Shown here one piece after another: positions 23,230-31,620 of a DNA stretch of 64,000 bases. Position 1 is the stretch's first letter. Each line of letters begins with the position of its first letter. The notes below the pieces were generated by a model, which worked only from the letters and a program-made list of their open reading frames with translations, had not been told where the DNA came from and ran no database searches. Location: positions 1-64,000 of the forward strand of contig RFVF01000020.1 of the NCBI GenBank assembly GCA_009922615.1. Reading direction: 5' to 3'. A program made the position numbers and the translations under genes. Source of the DNA: Pseudomonadota bacterium. Its GTDB lineage: Bacteria; Verrucomicrobiota; Verrucomicrobiia; Limisphaerales; SXTU01.

Positions 23230-26200
23230 TCACGCCGCCCGGCGCTGGGCGAAGACGGCCACGGCAATCCACAGTGCGAGGAACGCGCCGAGTGTCAGCA
23301 CGATGGGTTTGAGCCAGCCGCCAGCCTTCAAATTCCGCGCGGTGAACTCGACGGTCATCGGCTTGTTCACCTCGGTTTGGAGGACTTGCGTGAATGCGTG
23401 GCGCTGGCCTCGCAGAGGGAGGTTCACGCGCAGCGGTTGCACAGTCGCCACGGTCACTTCCTGCGCCTTCTGGAGCTTCTCCAACTGCTGCTCGGCGGCA
23501 CCGGTGTCGTAGGTCAACGCGTTGGCACCTTTTCCAGCTTCGAAGAAGCCGTCGGCTTGCCCGCCGAACTTCGTTGCATTGTCCAACGAATAAGCCTGCT
23601 GCGCCTGCACCAAGTTGCTTGCCTGCGATTGGCGCAGTTGCTTCTCCACTTCCTTCAACTGCCGGAAGTCGTCCCCGTCGCCGTCTTTGCCGGCCTTCCA
23701 GTCTGGCCCACCGCGATTGCCTTGCGGGTTTGCGCTGCGCTTGTAGTTGAACCACTCGTTGTTCGCCTCGTTGAGTTTGCCGGAGGAGAGCAGGCTGCTG
23801 AGTTTGCTCAGACTCGATTTGGATTCGTTGTCACGCACCTCCTTGTTCCTTGCCTCCTGGCGCGAGTAATCCGTGGCCGAGTAGTTCACCGTCACCACCG
23901 GCGCACCACTGGTGTCGCGGCCCATCGTGCCGGCGAACTCCGTGTATTCGTAGTCGGGCGGCAACAGCAGTTCCCACCGGGCGTTCTTCAGCGGCACGTC
24001 GAACTTCGGCGAAGCGAAGGCCACGTTGCCCTGGCGCTTGGGGAACTTGTCTGCCGCCACGTAGGTGAACTCAATCGGCAGCGCCGCGTCGCCGCCGGCC
24101 TGCTCCATCGGCAGAAGCAGCTTGCCGCCCTGTTTGGTCGGTCGCACCGGCTGGCCGTTGACGAACGCGCTCCACACGATTGCGCCTGTCGGCAGCTCTA
24201 CTTCGAGGAACTGCCGCCCGTTGTTGCGCACAGATAGCGACACCTCCGTCATCATCTGCCCGTCGTCGGCCACGACCGTCGTGAGCCGCGCGCTGTCCAC
24301 CAGCGCCTGCAACACCGCCGCCTCCGCGAAGCGCTGCGGTGTCACCGCCAGCTTCCAGCCGGGCCGCAAGTAACGCCACGCCAGCACGACTTGCTCGCCC
24401 TTCGCGCCGCTCGCGTGGGCCGACGCCCATTCGGGCAGCTCTCGCGCATCAATCCGCACCAGCTCCGTGCTCGCGGACTTCTCCGAGACTTGCAACGGCG
24501 GCTTGGCCAGGATGGCCACGGTGCCCGTCTCGCGCTCGACGCCCACGGCCTCGACCGCCGGCACGTCCACGGGGGCGGCGGACTTCGCGACGCGCGGCTG
24601 CTCCCACGTCACCACGAACGTGTGCTGGCCGCGCAGTTTGTTCTGCAATTCCACGCGCCACACTTCGCCGGTCTGGTCGCGCCGGCGGATGTTGGGGCCG
24701 GTGATGTCCACGTTCGTCACGGTCAGCGGAATCTTCAGCCGGAACTCCTTCACCGGCGCATTCGCGATGTCCAACCGCACCAGCGCGCGCCCGCTCACGA
24801 GCGTCTCGCTCACGCTGATGAGATTCACCACTTCGGCGCGCACCCACGACTCAAGCTGCTCCGTTGCCACGGACAGCTTCCACACGGCAGCGGGCGTCGG
24901 GTCGGGGGAAAGGAACTTGAAGGCCAACGTGGCTTGCTCACTCAGCCCTTTGTAAATGCCGACCGGTGTCGAGGCGGCAGGAATCTCGCTCAAGCCGTCG
25001 AAGCTCTCGGTCTTCACCGAGAGGCCCGCCTCGGTGGAAACGGAGACGAAGCCGTTCAGCTTGTGGACGCCCAGCGGATGCACCGCCGGCACCGCGAAGG
25101 TCTTGGGCGCTTCCTTCACCGTCTGCGCCAGCACTACCAGCAGCGAGACTTGGCCCTGCGTGCGTTCGCGAAGTGGCACTTCCAGCACGCGCACACCGGC
25201 GTCGGTCTTCTCGGTCCAGTTGTTGATGGGCATGAGCGCGCTGCCCTTGGCGCGCAACGTGGCGTCCACGTAGGCGACGGTTTCGATCCGCCAGCCCACA
25301 GGAATCTGCGCGCGGAGCTGGAAGATGCCAGCCTTCTTCACGGTGTAACTCACTTCGGCGGCGAGCCGCAGCTCCTCCGCGCCGAGGCGCATGCGCTGCA
25401 TCACCACGGCCTCGACCTGCGGCTGCACCGCCTCGGCCTTCACCGTGAGAGCGAAGGTGCTGCGCAGGTAGCGGAACGCGCTGACAAGGTCGGTGTGGTT
25501 GAGCTTGCTGGCGCGGTTGAACTCCGCGAGGTCCACGCGCTGCAAGTCATCCGCCGTCTCGACGGCCAGGCTCGTCTCCTCCGCGCCGCGCACGGCCACG
25601 AGGCCCGCCTCGCGCCGCACGTCCTGCACGACGGGCACCTCGACCTTCACCGTCGCGGGCAGTGTGGGGAGCGGCTTCTCCGTCTCAATGGTCAATCGCC
25701 AGTTCGCGCTCATGCCCTTGAGCAAGTCCACGGAGAGAATTTCCGTGCCGCCCTCGGTCATGAGTTCCCACGTGCGGATGCCCTCGCCCTCGACGCGCAG
25801 GAGCCGTTGCCCGACGGGCAGGCGGACCTTGGCCTGGCGCAGTTCGCCCTGCGCGATTTGGTAGTCCACCACCGCGCGTGAGTTCACCACGCCGCCGCCG
25901 ACGGTCACGAGCGTGGCGGTCTGCGCGAAGACGGTGGCCTCCATCTCGGCAAGGCGTTTCATGCGCGGCGTCCAAGCGAGGTCCACGCGGTCGGTGCTGC
26001 CGATGATGGCCTCGACGCGCGTCTGCTTGCCGGCGGGCGTGCGCTTGAAGGCCACGGCGCTGGGGAACTCGACATCCGCGTCCTGCTCGTCAATAAGCGC
26101 GGTGAACTGGCTGGCCAAAGCCGGCGGCAGGCCGAAGCCGAGCCGGCGCTTGGTGACATCGCCATCGAGGCGGACGAACAGTTTTAGCTCCACCGTGACC

Positions 26201-29200
26201 GCGCCGGCCTTGGGCAGCCAGACGCGGGCGGAACCGGCCTCGCGCACGAGCCGCGCCTCGCCGGACTTCGCGGTGAAACTCTGGATGGCCACATCGCTGC
26301 CGAAGAGCGTGAAGGTTTGGTTCGTGCCGGTGGAACTGAGCGCGAGCGTGGCGGTGAACTCGGCGGCCTTCTCGCGGATCGTGCCCGTGTAGGCGGCAGA
26401 GGTGAGGGTGACGATGCTGGATGCTGGATGCTGGATGCTGGATGAAGACTGAGCGCAGAGCGCGAACTGCAAGGCGAGCAGCAACAGAACGATGCTCGCC
26501 ACGGTCGGCGGCGCAGAGCCGGAGCCTTTGTCCGAGTCTGAACCTCGGGTGGCCTCGGAGACCGCCGCGCTGGAAGTCACCGGCGCAACCGCCGGAGCCA
26601 ATCCAGCATCCGGAATCTGGCCTCCAGCATCGGTCTTGCGCGGCCAAAATTTCCACGCCAGCCACACGAGCAACGCCGCCCCAACCAACGGCACCGCCGC
26701 GATCAGCACCCAATGCAGCGTGCGCGCCGAAAGCCCCAGCCACACGACGCCCGCGAGCGCCAGCGCCACGCCCAGCGCAATGCCGAAGCTGCTGCGGTCC
26801 GCGCTGCGCCAGCCGAGCAGCGCCCAGAGCAGGCCTCCGAGGAAGAGCGCGAGCTGCCCGGCGGACTGCGCGGCGCGGAACTTGCCCAGCGGCATCAGGG
26901 ACATCTCAATGCCCAGCGGCTCGGACTTGAGGTTGAGCACCTTGGTGAAGGTGAACGCCTGCCCGCTGCGCGGGATGTCGATGCGGATGGAGCGCATCCC
27001 AACGGCGGTCTGCGCGGCCTCGCCGGCGACGCTGGCAAAGCCGGGGCCACCACCCGGTGCACCACCACCACCGACACCACCTGCGGCGAGCATGCCAAGT
27101 TGGAAGGCTCCGCTCGCGTTTGCCGTGCCGGTAAGGCCACCTCGACGGTCAGTAACAGCACCAGCAACATAATCGTTTCCCGTGACGGCCGTTCCATTCG
27201 CAGTCGCAAAGTTTACGGACACAGTTTGGTTAGTCGTCTGGCTGTCTAAGACTCTCACCCCGTAAACGGCAGCCCCAAAGTCCGGCGGCGCCGATGGCTT
27301 GGTGGTGGCAGCGATTGGGTTGCCCATCGGGTCCAGTGGTGGAGCGGGCATTGCCGCTGGCGGCGGCGTCATGGGCATCGGGCCGGAGGAGGCCTTGCGT
27401 TCGGCACTTAAGTGGTCCACACGGGCGAGTGATTCGGATTTCTCCCGCTGGGCCAGTTTCTTGTCCATGTCGGCGAGTTGCTCCATCTCCGCGCGCAACT
27501 CCTGTGGCTTGGCTGGCTGGTCTGCTTGCTTGGCAAACTCCAGTCGGCGCGTCGCCACGAGGGAGTTTGAGAAGGTCGTATCCACCGACCCATCCACATT
27601 CAACCGGGCGATGCGATTGCGAGGGGTTCCGTTCATGTTGGAGAAGTCCCCGCCAACCGCGCCAGCACCAGATATCGGTGTCACGTTCTTCGGTGTCTTC
27701 ATCGCCAAGGCCTGGGCGTCTTGCGCCATCCCCACGCCCTGCGCCCTGCGCACGGAGGACTGTGCGACGATTTGAGCGTCCTTCTGCAACGCTTGGGCGA
27801 AGGCCGAACTGGTCATCTGCTGCACGCTGCCGTCGCCGAAGACGGCGTTGCGGTGGCCTTCCACGTCCACCGGCGTGAAGGCGAGGACGGAGTCGGGATG
27901 CTCGGGCTTGCCCGCGCCCGTCCACACGTAGCGCTCGCCGGTCTCGGGGTCGGTGAGGATTTTGTCCGAGCCGAGCTCGTTCATCATCTCCTCGAAGTTG
28001 TCGGGGAAGCGGCCGGCGTTGTCGTTGGCGAAGATTTTGGCCGCGAGGCCGATTTGCTTGAGGTTGTTCGCGGACTTGATGCGACCCGCCTTGGCCTTCG
28101 CCTTGGAGAGCGCGGGTAGCATCATGCTGGCGATGATAGCGCAGACGAACAGCACCACGGCAGCGGTGCCAAAGCCTTTCATCCCGTTCACCTTCACCGA
28201 GCGGACGATGAAGTAAACGACCGCGAGAAAGGCCAGCCCGCCGAGGAGTTGGCTCCACACGTCTTCCCACCACAAGAGGAAGCGGTCCCACGCTTCGCGC
28301 AGTCCGTAAGTAGTCCCGCGCGCCTCGGTCATGGTGCCGCCGAAGCTGGAGACGCGCTTGGTGGCGGGGACGAAGAGCTGCCACTCAGCGTAGGTGTTCG
28401 GCACGTCCGTGGCCGGCGCGGTGAGCGCGACGTGCTGCGGCAGCCATTTGTCCAGCGCCGCGAGCTTCTGTGCATACACGATGTCCACGGCGAACGCCTC
28501 GTCGCGGTTTTCGCCGCGCGGCAGCGGGATTTGCAGCCAGTCGCCGTCGCGCTCGGCCTTGCTGGGCTGGTTGTTGACGTAGCAGCCCCAGAAGTTCGCG
28601 CCGGCCGGGAGCTTGAAACGCTGATGCTGCTTCTCGTTGTTCTTCACCATGAAGCTGGCCTGCGTGAGCATCTCGCCCGCCTCGGTCACGACGCTGGTGA
28701 TCTGCGTGCGGTCGGCCACGGCGTCCAGCACGCGCTCCTCGTCGAAGCGCGCCGCGTCCGCCGTGAGCGCGTAGCTGCTGCCGGTGTAACGATACGCCAG
28801 CAACACGGGCCGCGTGATGAGCGCGCGGTCGGTCTCGGCCAGCTCAGACTGGTCGATGGTCCGCAACGGCTCGGCGGCGGGCTTGGGCTGGAGTTTCAGG
28901 TTCGCGGCGGCGGTCACGGCCACGGAGCCGGTCTCGCGCTCGACGCCGTCGCAATGCGCGCCCGCGAGGTCGAGCACGGCCTTCTTGGGGTCGAACTGGT
29001 AGTCGTAGGTGACGACCAGCGTGTAGCCGCCCCAGGCTTTGTCCTGGAGAGAAACTGTCCATACCTTCGTCGCCTGCTCCTTGCGCCGGATGTTGGGCCC
29101 GGTAAACTCGACGTTCTTCCAATGCCCCGGAAGCCGGACTTTGAACTCCTGCACGCCCTGATTGAGGATGCCGAAGCGGATGGTCGCGCTGCCGCCCACG

Positions 29201-31479
29201 AGTCCGTCGCCGACAGTGACGAGGTTGAACACCTCGGCCACGACGCGCGCGGGCAGGCGCTCGGTGGCGAGGGCGAGCTTCCAATCCGGCGCATCGGCGG
29301 TGAAGGCGAGGGCCTCGTCGCCCGCCCGCTGCGAGAGCTGGGTCACCGGGATTTCCCGCGCGCTGGTCAGGGTTTCCGTCTTGAGCCGGATGCCCGCCGC
29401 CGAGGCCGCGCCGATGAACGCGGTCTCCTTCGTCGCGCCCGTGACGCGCACGGCACCGACGGTGATTTGTGCCGGGAAGGTCTTGTGCGGTTGCTCCAAC
29501 GTGAGGTCGAGGCGATGCGCGCTGAGCACGCGCTGCGTGAAGTTGACCTTGAGTTTGCCCGCCGTGGCCTTCCAATCCTCCACGTTCCCGCCGCGCACGT
29601 CGGTCACGTTGAAGTTCGTCGGGTAAGTCAGCTCCGCCGTGTAGATGCCGGCCTTGAGCACGCTGAGGTTCACCGCGTGGCTCACCACGAGCCGCGACTC
29701 CTCCAGCCGTGCCGTGACGCGCGTGGCCGTTTCCAGCACTGGCTCGATGCGCCGCGCGCGGCCGGACACGTCGAAGCCTCGCGCGCTGAAGCGGTAAGCG
29801 TAGAACGTGCCGCTGGGCGCGTTGACCTGGCGCACGTCGCGCGCGGTGGTCACGTCCACCACCATGTCGTCGGCGAGGATGGACACGGTGCCGGACTCGC
29901 GCTCGATACCCACCGGCTGCGGCGGCACGAAGGCCACCGCGCCCGCCGCGTCGTTGGCCGTCTCGGTGAAGAGCGTGAGCGAGTAGGTCTTCTCGACGGG
30001 CTTGGCGAAGGTGACGAGCAACACCTGCGTGGCGTTGCTTCGCGTGACGGCCCAGTCGCGGATGGTCTCGCCGGTGAGCTTGGTGAGCGTGGCGTTGGCG
30101 GGCAGCAGCACGCGCAGCTCGTTGACGCTGGCCTGAAGCAGCTCGTAGCGGAATTCGGTGGTCATCTTCGTCACCGTGGGCGAAACGACGATGCTGGCGG
30201 TGGTGTCCACGGTGATGAGGGACTTGCGCGCAATCTCCGTGGTCTTGCCCTGCCAGCGCAGCGAGACCACACGGTCCGCTCCCACGACGCCGGCGATCGA
30301 GGAAGCGGTCTTGGCCGGCGTGCCTTCGAGCAACGCACCGGTGAGAAGTTCGAACTGAACCCCGATGTTGCCCTCGGCCTTGAGGCTGGCCACGGAGGCG
30401 GGCGGGCCGGTGAAGGCGATTTGGTTCCACGGTTCGGCCTTGGTGATGCGGGCGATGACTTCGAGCTTGAGCGTGTGGACGCCGGGCTTGGTGCAGTGCA
30501 GGCGGTAGGTCCCCGCGCGCGTGCCGGCGGTTTGCAACCGCCGTCCGGAGCTGTCGTTCGCCACAGACGGCGACTGCAAGTCGCCGGCACGGGTGAGGCG
30601 AATGCCCGCCGGCAAGTCCGGCGCGAAGACGGCGACGTCGCCTTGGAAGAGCACGGCGGAGACCTCGTTCGTAGTGAGCGACTCGACCTCGACCGTCGCC
30701 GTGAAGCGCGCCTCGGTGTCGGTGACCTTCCCATCGTAGCGCACCTCGCGGACGATGAGGTTGGTGTAAGTCGCGGGTGGCGGCAGCGCGGCGACGCCGA
30801 TGGTCTTGGGCGGGCTGGAGCCGCGGGAGATGATTTGCAGGCCGTTGAGCACCGCCACGCCACCGGGCCCCGGCGCGACCTCGATGACGATGGGTTGGTC
30901 CTTCTCCACGGGCACATCGCGGAACACGACGAACTGCCGGCCCTCCTGCCAGCCTTGCGCAACCTTCCAGCCCGGCGCAGGCGCGGCGGTGAGCGGGCCA
31001 AGTGTGTTCGTGCCGCTGCGGAGCACGAAGACGGAGTTCTGCTCCGCCGTCGCGTCCGGCTCGGCGTGGCCGTAGAGATAGAAGTGGTAGCGTCCCGCCT
31101 CCAGTGCACGGACGGTCACGACGAGGTTCGAGCCGTTCTGCGCGAAGAGGAACGAGTCGAACATCGCGTCGCCCGAAGCGTTGCCCCAGACGCCTGGGGC
31201 GTTTTGCACCGCGATGGACACGGGCGATTCAGATCTGTCGGCGAACTTGAGCCTCTCGGTGGTGTGGTTTGGCACCTGCGGCTGGCCGGGCGTGAAGCGC
31301 GGGTTGTAATGAGCGTGAAGATTCCAGAAATCATTCGTCGCGAGCCCGGTGGCGGCAAACCCGGACTTGGCACTCGCCGCGCCGACGCCGAAGTCCACGT
31401 TGAGAAGGACTTGCGCCCGGGCAGGAGTGAGTAAAAGCAGGAGGAAGAGGAATGAGACACGAACGGCAGAAGTCTTCAT
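23230..31479 (-). CDS. 2749-residue composite envelope protein made of two fused paralogous halves
   Basis: The ATG at 31479 starts a signal peptide (SVRVSFLFLLLLL-like, cleaved near TPARA). The protein is mainly beta-rich. A unit of about 330 residues occurs four times, marked by GIERESGTVSI (about residue 525), GVERETGSVAV (845), VRREAGLVAV (1955) and GVERETGTVAI (2312). TGPNIRRKEQ (795) and TGPNIRRRDQ (2263) mark the same spot in each half. Each half ends with a similar strand pair plus membrane helix. Half 1 carries extra membrane helices (about 1075-1120 and 1540-1613) and inserted foreign segments. A second signal-like helix (IVLLLLALQFALCAQ, about 1665-1680) begins half 2. The C-terminus is a helix (about 2722-2745) followed by Arg-Arg-Ala-Ala. 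It is probably anchored in the inner membrane with large periplasmic parts. I do not recognise a named family, and the function is unknown. Confidence 0.85.
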   Translation of the reverse strand: MKTSAVRVSFLFLLLLLTPARAQVLLNVDFGVGAASAKSGFAATGLATNDFWNLHAHYNPRFTPGQPQVPNHTTERLKFADRSESPVSIAVQNAPGVWGNASGDAMFDSFLFAQNGSNLVVTVRALEAGRYHFYLYGHAEPDATAEQNSVFVLRSGTNTLGPLTAAPAPGWKVAQGWQEGRQFVVFRDVPVEKDQPIVIEVAPGPGGVAVLNGLQIISRGSSPPKTIGVAALPPPATYTNLIVREVRYDGKVTDTEARFTATVEVESLTTNEVSAVLFQGDVAVFAPDLPAGIRLTRAGDLQSPSVANDSSGRRLQTAGTRAGTYRLHCTKPGVHTLKLEVIARITKAEPWNQIAFTGPPASVASLKAEGNIGVQFELLTGALLEGTPAKTASSIAGVVGADRVVSLRWQGKTTEIARKSLITVDTTASIVVSPTVTKMTTEFRYELLQASVNELRVLLPANATLTKLTGETIRDWAVTRSNATQVLLVTFAKPVEKTYSLTLFTETANDAAGAVAFVPPQPVGIERESGTVSILADDMVVDVTTARDVRQVNAPSGTFYAYRFSARGFDVSGRARRIEPVLETATRVTARLEESRLVVSHAVNLSVLKAGIYTAELTYPTNFNVTDVRGGNVEDWKATAGKLKVNFTQRVLSAHRLDLTLEQPHKTFPAQITVGAVRVTGATKETAFIGAASAAGIRLKTETLTSAREIPVTQLSQRAGDEALAFTADAPDWKLALATERLPARVVAEVFNLVTVGDGLVGGSATIRFGILNQGVQEFKVRLPGHWKNVEFTGPNIRRKEQATKVWTVSLQDKAWGGYTLVVTYDYQFDPKKAVLDLAGAHCDGVERETGSVAVTAAANLKLQPKPAAEPLRTIDQSELAETDRALITRPVLLAYRYTGSSYALTADAARFDEERVLDAVADRTQITSVVTEAGEMLTQASFMVKNNEKQHQRFKLPAGANFWGCYVNNQPSKAERDGDWLQIPLPRGENRDEAFAVDIVYAQKLAALDKWLPQHVALTAPATDVPNTYAEWQLFVPATKRVSSFGGTMTEARGTTYGLREAWDRFLLWWEDVWSQLLGGLAFLAVVYFIVRSVKVNGMKGFGTAAVVLFVCAIIASMMLPALSKAKAKAGRIKSANNLKQIGLAAKIFANDNAGRFPDNFEEMMNELGSDKILTDPETGERYVWTGAGKPEHPDSVLAFTPVDVEGHRNAVFGDGSVQQMTSSAFAQALQKDAQIVAQSSVRRAQGVGMAQDAQALAMKTPKNVTPISGAGAVGGDFSNMNGTPRNRIARLNVDGSVDTTFSNSLVATRRLEFAKQADQPAKPQELRAEMEQLADMDKKLAQREKSESLARVDHLSAERKASSGPMPMTPPPAAMPAPPLDPMGNPIAATTKPSAPPDFGAAVYGVRVLDSQTTNQTVSVNFATANGTAVTGNDYVAGAVTDRRGGLTGTANASGAFQLGMLAAGGVGGGGAPGGGPGFASVAGEAAQTAVGMRSIRIDIPRSGQAFTFTKVLNLKSEPLGIEMSLMPLGKFRAAQSAGQLALFLGGLLWALLGWRSADRSSFGIALGVALALAGVVWLGLSARTLHWVLIAAVPLVGAALLVWLAWKFWPRKTDAGGQIPDAGLAPAVAPVTSSAAVSEATRGSDSDKGSGSAPPTVASIVLLLLALQFALCAQSSSSIQHPASSIVTLTSAAYTGTIREKAAEFTATLALSSTGTNQTFTLFGSDVAIQSFTAKSGEARLVREAGSARVWLPKAGAVTVELKLFVRLDGDVTKRRLGFGLPPALASQFTALIDEQDADVEFPSAVAFKRTPAGKQTRVEAIIGSTDRVDLAWTPRMKRLAEMEATVFAQTATLVTVGGGVVNSRAVVDYQIAQGELRQAKVRLPVGQRLLRVEGEGIRTWELMTEGGTEILSVDLLKGMSANWRLTIETEKPLPTLPATVKVEVPVVQDVRREAGLVAVRGAEETSLAVETADDLQRVDLAEFNRASKLNHTDLVSAFRYLRSTFALTVKAEAVQPQVEAVVMQRMRLGAEELRLAAEVSYTVKKAGIFQLRAQIPVGWRIETVAYVDATLRAKGSALMPINNWTEKTDAGVRVLEVPLRERTQGQVSLLVVLAQTVKEAPKTFAVPAVHPLGVHKLNGFVSVSTEAGLSVKTESFDGLSEIPAASTPVGIYKGLSEQATLAFKFLSPDPTPAAVWKLSVATEQLESWVRAEVVNLISVSETLVSGRALVRLDIANAPVKEFRLKIPLTVTNVDITGPNIRRRDQTGEVWRVELQNKLRGQHTFVVTWEQPRVAKSAAPVDVPAVEAVGVERETGTVAILAKPPLQVSEKSASTELVRIDARELPEWASAHASGAKGEQVVLAWRYLRPGWKLAVTPQRFAEAAVLQALVDSARLTTVVADDGQMMTEVSLSVRNNGRQFLEVELPTGAIVWSAFVNGQPVRPTKQGGKLLLPMEQAGGDAALPIEFTYVAADKFPKRQGNVAFASPKFDVPLKNARWELLLPPDYEYTEFAGTMGRDTSGAPVVTVNYSATDYSRQEARNKEVRDNESKSSLSKLSSLLSSGKLNEANNEWFNYKRSANPQGNRGGPDWKAGKDGDGDDFRQLKEVEKQLRQSQASNLVQAQQAYSLDNATKFGGQADGFFEAGKGANALTYDTGAAEQQLEKLQKAQEVTVATVQPLRVNLPLRGQRHAFTQVLQTEVNKPMTVEFTARNLKAGGWLKPIVLTLGAFLALWIAVAVFAQRRAA
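26413..26440. repeat. Four tandem copies of GATGCTG inside the giant gene
   Basis: Four perfect heptamers are followed by GATGAAG. Seven bases is not a multiple of three, so the repeat is read in all frames across copies and still leaves the gene open, giving SSIQHPASSI in the protein. It sits just after the internal signal-like helix, at the junction of the two protein halves. Confidence 0.85.
27121..27280 (-). other. Calx-beta-like fragment inside the giant gene
   Basis: This segment of the 2749-residue protein (about residues 1400-1450) reads VSVNFATANGTAVTGNDYVA, the signature strand pair of Calx-beta domains, without the rest of the domain. It is visibly less G+C-rich than flanking coding sequence. 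It is followed by a Gly/Ala-rich linker (AAGGVGGGGAPGGGPGF). Confidence 0.65.
27561..27680 (-). other. Single delta-60-like repeat inside the giant gene
   Basis: About residues 1266-1306 of the giant protein read GAVGGDFSNMNGTPRNRIAR then LNVDGSVDTTF, a near-consensus delta-60 repeat. Such repeats normally come in long tandem series in secreted proteins of this phylum. A lone unit between a pseudopilin-like segment and a coiled-coil-like linker is out of place. Confidence 0.7.
27810..28180 (-). other. Pseudopilin-like segment with H-X9-DG motif inside the giant gene
   Basis: About residues 1100-1223 contain a hydrophobic helix (AAVVLFVCAIIASMMLPAL), the charged SKAKAKAGRIKSANNLKQIG typical of verrucomicrobial pseudopilins, AKIFANDNAGRFPDNFEEM, and a closing GHRNAVFGDGSVQQM that fits the H-X9-DG motif of prepilin-type proteins. 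The normal prepilin peptidase site before the helix is absent, so this is an embedded pilin core and not a processed pilin. Confidence 0.75.
30521..30590. repeat. 70-bp double palindrome embedded in the giant coding sequence
   Basis: The ends are GTGCCGGCG and CGCCGGCAC. Inside are two perfect hairpins, GGCGGTT-TGC-AACCGCC (30526-30542) and GGCGACT-GCA-AGTCGCC (30569-30585). The element is read in frame on the minus strand as RAGDLQSPSVANDSSGRRLQ plus TAGT. A half copy lies at 23194-23216 outside the gene. This points to a mobile or copy-prone REP-like sequence that entered a coding region without breaking it. Confidence 0.8.
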
Positions 31480-31620
31480 GGCGTGAGTTCGGATTGCGGC
31501 GGAGTGTAGCGGGTTCATGCGGTGAAAGTCATCGGGTGAAACACGGAGTCAGCGGGATGGTTGCGGAGCGCATGGAGCATTGGACGGGACGATCACGGAA
31601 ATGCTCCTGCGCACGAACTG

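Follow-up and report, generated by a model that had tools for sequence, protein, structure and literature searches.

The giant envelope protein encoded in the window (the whole stretch of 64,000 nucleotides analysed here) carries in its centre a cassette of pilin descent, residues ~1113-1246 (nucleotides ~27781-28182), composed of a pilin-type helix and a small alpha/beta domain. At about even confidence, we explain this segment as a domesticated pilin, which would act as an input or contact module of extracytoplasmic envelope signalling and not as an assembled pseudopilin. The first-pass annotation had placed a pseudopilin core at residues 1100-1223; a pilin-type core is indeed present at this location, in a unit that extends slightly further than was claimed.

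The gene occupies positions 23230-31518 of the minus strand, on which all parts of the protein given below are encoded, and forms an intact ORF of 2,762 aa without interruption, present in one copy in its own genome. An N-terminal signal peptide or first hydrophobic segment (aa ~14-36, 31411-31479, from hydropathy) is followed by the N-lobe (aa 37-1074, 28297-31410) and by TM1 (aa 1086-1108, 28195-28263), detected by hydropathy and also a helix in the AlphaFold model. A short basic loop with Gly1112 (28183-28185) connects TM1 to TM2, the N-terminal half of the pilin-type alpha1 (aa 1113-1136, 28111-28182), and the C-terminal half of alpha1 with the small alpha/beta domain completes the cassette (aa 1137-1246, 27781-28110), both parts being supported by profile matches and the AlphaFold model. 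The linker behind it contains a single delta-60 (DUF5122) repeat (aa 1288-1316, 27571-27657; Pfam E 6.5e-9, above cut-off) and a Calx-beta-like scrap (aa 1421-1454, 27157-27258; Pfam E 0.003, below cut-off); another delta-60-like piece is seen by eye in the linker of L045. Hydropathy further indicates a TM3-TM5 bundle (aa 1550-1625, 26644-26871), a signal-peptide-like TM6 (aa 1667-1695, 26434-26520) and TM7 (aa 2736-2759, 23242-23313), the last two enclosing the C-lobe (aa 1696-2735, 23314-26433). The two lobes are homologous, with ~30% identity when each is compared through its orthologues. Because positive residues are found in the TM1-TM2 loop and after the TM3-TM5 bundle, both lobes and the pilin domain would lie on the periplasmic side.

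Several short repetitive features are scattered over the gene. At positions 30521-30590 (aa ~310-333) the reading frame runs through a palindrome of 70 bp, GTGCCGGCG...CGCCGGCAC, that contains two inner hairpins; this element has 32 matches across the window's genome, one of them inside an unrelated ORF at C310. A heptamer, GATGCTG, is tandemly repeated 4.6 times at positions 26413-26444, adjoining TM6, and a second repetitive place occurs at ~26600; in other genomes the same two places flanking TM6 hold different short repetitive words. The neighbours of the giant gene in the window are a mutM-like gene and ABC-transporter genes.

Judged by sequence, the pilin homology of the embedded segment is far beyond chance. 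A search with residues 1120-1173 recovers dozens of canonical pilins encoded in the window's genome (best E 7.8e-11), and an alpha1 profile reaches canonical pilins at E values down to 9e-17. When a profile of 39 orthologous segments is compared with the sequences of solved structures, it matches GspG (5wda, E 1e-6) and a Geobacter pilin (E 1.4e-5). Of the family models, GspG (NCBIfam, TIGR01710) is matched by 22 of the 39 orthologues, PilA by 21, and DUF1559 (PF07596) by 22 at E <= 0.01 (best 2.7e-9). The search against prepilin and H-X9-DG models that the first-pass annotation had proposed is answered positively for pilins by the 39-segment profile; the window sequence itself remains below the gathering cut-off of PF07596 (~19 versus 23.3 bits) and below the curated cut-off of TIGR04294 (12.8 versus 19 bits). 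The AlphaFold model comprises a long helix, short helices, a three-stranded sheet and a C-terminal helix, with a pLDDT of 88.9 including the TM hairpin and 90.8 for the part after TM2. Foldseek searches of both AlphaFold models against the PDB return no solved pilin, nor does a profile built from the portion behind TM2 find any relative among PDB sequences, so that the fold is backed by model and sequence and not by a structural match.

Orthologues of the giant were detected in 26 of 40 related genomes, and 63 loci were obtained from the genome collection. Nearly all are labelled as Verrucomicrobia (Limisphaerales, Pedosphaera, subdivision 3), with a few labelled otherwise. Contigs L082, L083, L087 and L117 are labelled Klebsiella pneumoniae, Proteobacteria or Akkermansia muciniphila, yet carry the giant gene, and are probably mislabelled MAGs. 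The cassette is present at the same place in 39 of the ~60 orthologues with a readable centre and missing from about a third, including the closest relatives. Some of the cassette-less orthologues keep alpha1 remnants only (e.g. L086, L114, L126, L129), others nothing recognisable. More distant homologues of ~2,100-2,500 aa possess the TM pair and lack the pilin part; the ancestor of the nearer group therefore probably acquired the cassette, which was often lost afterwards. Its dN/dS values, 0.04-0.25 in most pairs and 0.42 in one, point to mostly purifying selection. A misassembly and a one-off insertion are both rejected, two other genomes of the genus and ~36 further orthologues having the cassette in frame and at the same place. 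The first-pass annotation had named a misassembly and the lack of any match to pilin models as grounds against its proposal; neither was found. In a genome of the window's genus, a short frame on the contig of L057 (L141, 8216-8632) has the cassette helix (NNLKQIGLA) running straight into the last TM, LALWIAIAVFAQRRTA, and looks as though a large stretch inside the gene had been deleted or the assembly had been joined there.

The two strings on which the first-pass annotation was based are present in the giant, SKAKAKAGRIK from residue 1138 and GHRNAVFGDG from residue 1221. The second had been read as an H-X9-DG motif, and here the DG part stands while the spacing does not: the window has H-x6-DG (aa 1222-1230, 27829-27855), the strict H-x9-DG form occurs in just 2 of 40 cassettes, and DGSV is the conserved part, the His not being kept.

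The absence of a prepilin cleavage site, likewise claimed at first pass, is borne out across the family. The class III signal is missing, with Gly at -1 in none of the 40 cassettes and Glu at +5 in five (no GFxxxE site), and a canonical prepilin peptidase site is rejected. This comes with the caveat of a Gly located one residue earlier, within RRG[W/F], which is invariant in all 40 cassette-bearing orthologues. A prepilin peptidase, which the genome encodes, might cut RRG|[W/F] in the cytoplasmic loop and release a C-terminal half with a pilin-type N-terminus and the C-lobe, and the invariant Gly does stand after basic residues and before a hydrophobic helix. Most cassette-less orthologues retain RRG[W/F] too, however, so that it looks like a hairpin-loop motif, and for this reason we consider such cleavage extremely improbable; the Gly is also one residue off the pilin register, Glu5 is mostly lost, and we know of no prepilin leader that starts with a full TM segment.

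The cassette also occurs in proteins other than the giant. A profile search covering 293 genomes from this order has its 51 strongest matches (E below ~1e-23) in 42 giants and nine membrane proteins of ~500 aa (396-521 aa), and in no other hosts. In these ~500-aa partners a short N-terminal stretch leads into a single TM of the pilin pattern, behind which come the cassette and an extended C-terminal tail. At the loci inspected, their gene comes after an ECF sigma gene, detected by family models, and diverges from the giant; in most of these loci its ORF overlaps the end of the sigma gene. They are labelled anti-sigma-like here solely for their position and layout, as the cassette-bearing partner matches no anti-sigma model of Pfam or NCBIfam. 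In cassette trees the partner cassettes fall at two places inside those of the giants, so that the cassette has been copied from the giants' lineage into the partner at least twice; a single origin is rejected (AU p 0.024 against one clade). A cassette-bearing partner stands beside a cassette-bearing giant in 9 of 9 comparable loci, three of the six partners without an intact cassette adjoin cassette-less giants, and where a cassette-less giant has a linked partner (three cases), this partner lacks the cassette too, in a sample that is small and phylogenetically non-independent.

Three further kinds of host have weaker full-length matches (E ~1e-20 to 1e-14): a second family of ~300 aa, small TM proteins and a Ser/Thr kinase. 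The second family, also anti-sigma-like, has a TM, a coiled coil and the cassette without the pilin TM, and at three loci its gene immediately follows an ECF sigma gene. The Ser/Thr protein kinase (L158), the single example examined, has a TM before the cassette and a nearly full-model match (E 1.6e-15). Upstream of two distant homologues of the giant (L063, 9543-13298; L059, 11365-14694) lie proteins that combine a pilin-like TM with a VWA/YfbK region, to which the one of L063 adds a weak anti-sigma match and an EpsF-like stretch.

These occurrences bear on the proposal of the first-pass annotation that the segment plugs, from inside another protein, into a type II/IV pilus-like machine. An internal, uncleaved pseudopilin entering a type II secretion or type IV pilus platform would agree with the alpha1 homology, with the dozens of canonical prepilins and the prepilin peptidase of the window's genome, and with a predicted topology that is pilin-like (short basic cytoplasmic loop, TM, periplasmic domain). 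Nothing found links the segment to such a machine, though: it does not have the N-terminal position of a pilin, lying at residues 1113-1246 of 2,762, it is tethered on both sides within a polytopic protein, the Gly(-1)/Glu5 signature is absent, and there is no pilus gene among the inspected neighbours of the giant. Outside the giant, the segment is most closely related to parts of signalling proteins, namely of TM proteins adjacent to ECF sigma genes and of the kinase, which makes a signalling or contact module likelier than a pilus part; we regard the platform reading as quite unlikely.

The presence of the cassette varies among close relatives in a way that involves more than the cassette. 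On a tree of the N-lobe flank it changes at least 6 times across well-supported branches, and 12 times by parsimony. L087, with the cassette, and L088, without it, share 95% DNA identity over the 3.1 kb that lead up to the block, then have ~660 bases without any match, and are 91% identical beyond; the window and L084 display the same pattern of similar flanks around an unrelated block. The cassette bearers of the window's genus (window, L080, L082) cluster by their TM1-TM2 segment (0.97 support), whereas the N-lobe rejects them as a single clade (AU p 4.9e-6), and their synonymous divergence is 0.37-0.97 in the block versus 0.24-0.30 in the flank. These patterns are best explained by recombinational replacement of a variable central block (residues ~1075-1500, 27019-28296), which spans TM1, TM2, cassette and linker and passes between close relatives as one piece. 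Simple deletion is insufficient as the origin of the cassette-less forms in the genus, as TM1 and the linker are replaced too and the flank tree disagrees with the grouping of the block.

Such exchange could mean that the block is a diversity module, whose forms with and without the pilin domain are kept by recombination, for example under attack by phages or rivals. The unrelated blocks between similar flanks, the 6-12 changes on the flank tree, the rejection of the genus bearers as one clade by the flank and the higher synonymous divergence of the block would all follow from it, but the cassette itself is mostly under purifying selection, and its repeated use in a kinase and in proteins linked to sigma factors speaks for a specific function; this explanation appears unlikely to us. 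Very unlikely is that the cassette is a functionless passenger, i.e. a pilin-gene fragment captured by recombination and now being lost. It would account for the many losses that leave alpha1 remnants, and for the other scraps in the same protein (delta-60, Calx-beta, palindromic repeat), but not for a cassette that is conserved across families at low dN/dS and has entered one and the same neighbouring gene on at least two occasions.

The domesticated pilin that we favour would retain the alpha1 helix and a compact globular domain without the processing signals. It would supply the second TM helix and a periplasmic domain to a two-lobed polytopic envelope protein of the Limisphaerales and would remain in the inner membrane without export. 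Within envelope signalling it would most likely serve as an input or contact module on the extracytoplasmic side, the most economical mechanism being one confined to inner membrane and periplasm. Its pilin-like helix would pair laterally with the pilin-like helices of partners, foremost, in other lineages, with the cassette-bearing anti-sigma-like protein beside the ECF sigma factor, and any signal would pass through such contacts. In favour of this explanation stand the pilin homology, the constant position in 39 orthologues with mostly low dN/dS, the confinement of the strongest matches to giants and ~500-aa partners, the repeated copying into the partner and the joint occurrence of the cassette in linked giants and partners, the further matches in sigma-adjacent proteins and a kinase, and the precedent of PilS binding PilA. 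Several findings count against this explanation: the giant of the window's genus has no sigma/anti-sigma pair among the neighbours inspected, and the match found in C288, a partner homologue in the window's genome, lies outside the cassette only; the cassette is dispensable, and Foldseek retrieves no solved pilin. Repeated transfer between neighbouring genes could, moreover, reflect their adjacency and not a function. More tentatively, and at clearly less than even confidence, the pilin-derived helix with its small domain may be a common intramembrane signalling currency of the order, sensing true pilins or each other, which was grafted on two kinds of sigma-linked protein, a Ser/Thr kinase and the giant, and which is exchanged as a block in the giant gene among close relatives.

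Compared with known systems, the cassette resembles the pilins and pseudopilins of type II secretion and type IV pili (GspG TIGR01710, the Geobacter pilin, the N-methylation domain) in its hydrophobic alpha1, the MLLPALSKAKAKA...NNLKQIG pattern and the predicted small alpha/beta domain next to it, and differs in its internal position, the missing Gly(-1)/Glu5 leader, the tethering on both sides, the lack of known filament partners and the lack of a Foldseek match to solved pilins. With the H-X9-DG-CTERM (TIGR04294) and DUF1559 (PF07596) families it shares the DG-containing C-terminal strand and the LKQIG region, and several orthologues match these models; it departs from them in the spacing of the His, and the window sequence does not reach either cut-off. 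In an ECF sigma/transmembrane anti-sigma pair, the place of the cassette-bearing partner would correspond to that of the anti-sigma factor, as it follows the ECF sigma gene and has a short N-terminus, one TM and a long C-terminal part; it deviates in matching no Pfam or NCBIfam anti-sigma model and in the pilin-derived domain after the TM. Contact of a pilin with a membrane sensor is known from Pseudomonas aeruginosa, where PilS binds the pilin PilA in the inner membrane, and likewise from the sensing of a minor pilin by FimS (PMC5979040). There, a true, processed pilin meets a histidine kinase sensor, whereas here the regulators themselves contain the pilin-derived domain.

Among the open-licence papers searched for verrucomicrobial pseudopilins, for pilin-like domains together with ECF anti-sigma factors, and for H-X9-DG and DUF1559, none describes such a system in its title or abstract. 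The parts are known already; their combination and use appear to be new. Pilins are subunits of filaments and secretion machines, and in these bacteria the pilin core has apparently been reused inside membrane regulators, namely two ECF-sigma-adjacent families, a kinase and a giant envelope protein. The exchange of the block provides a clean natural experiment, with near-identical proteins that do and do not possess the domain, and the linked locus of other Limisphaerales, which combines the sigma factor, the cassette-bearing partner and a giant with the same cassette, makes the pairing idea directly testable. If the pairing is true, bacteria with dozens of pilins could read the state of their envelope via helix contacts in the membrane.
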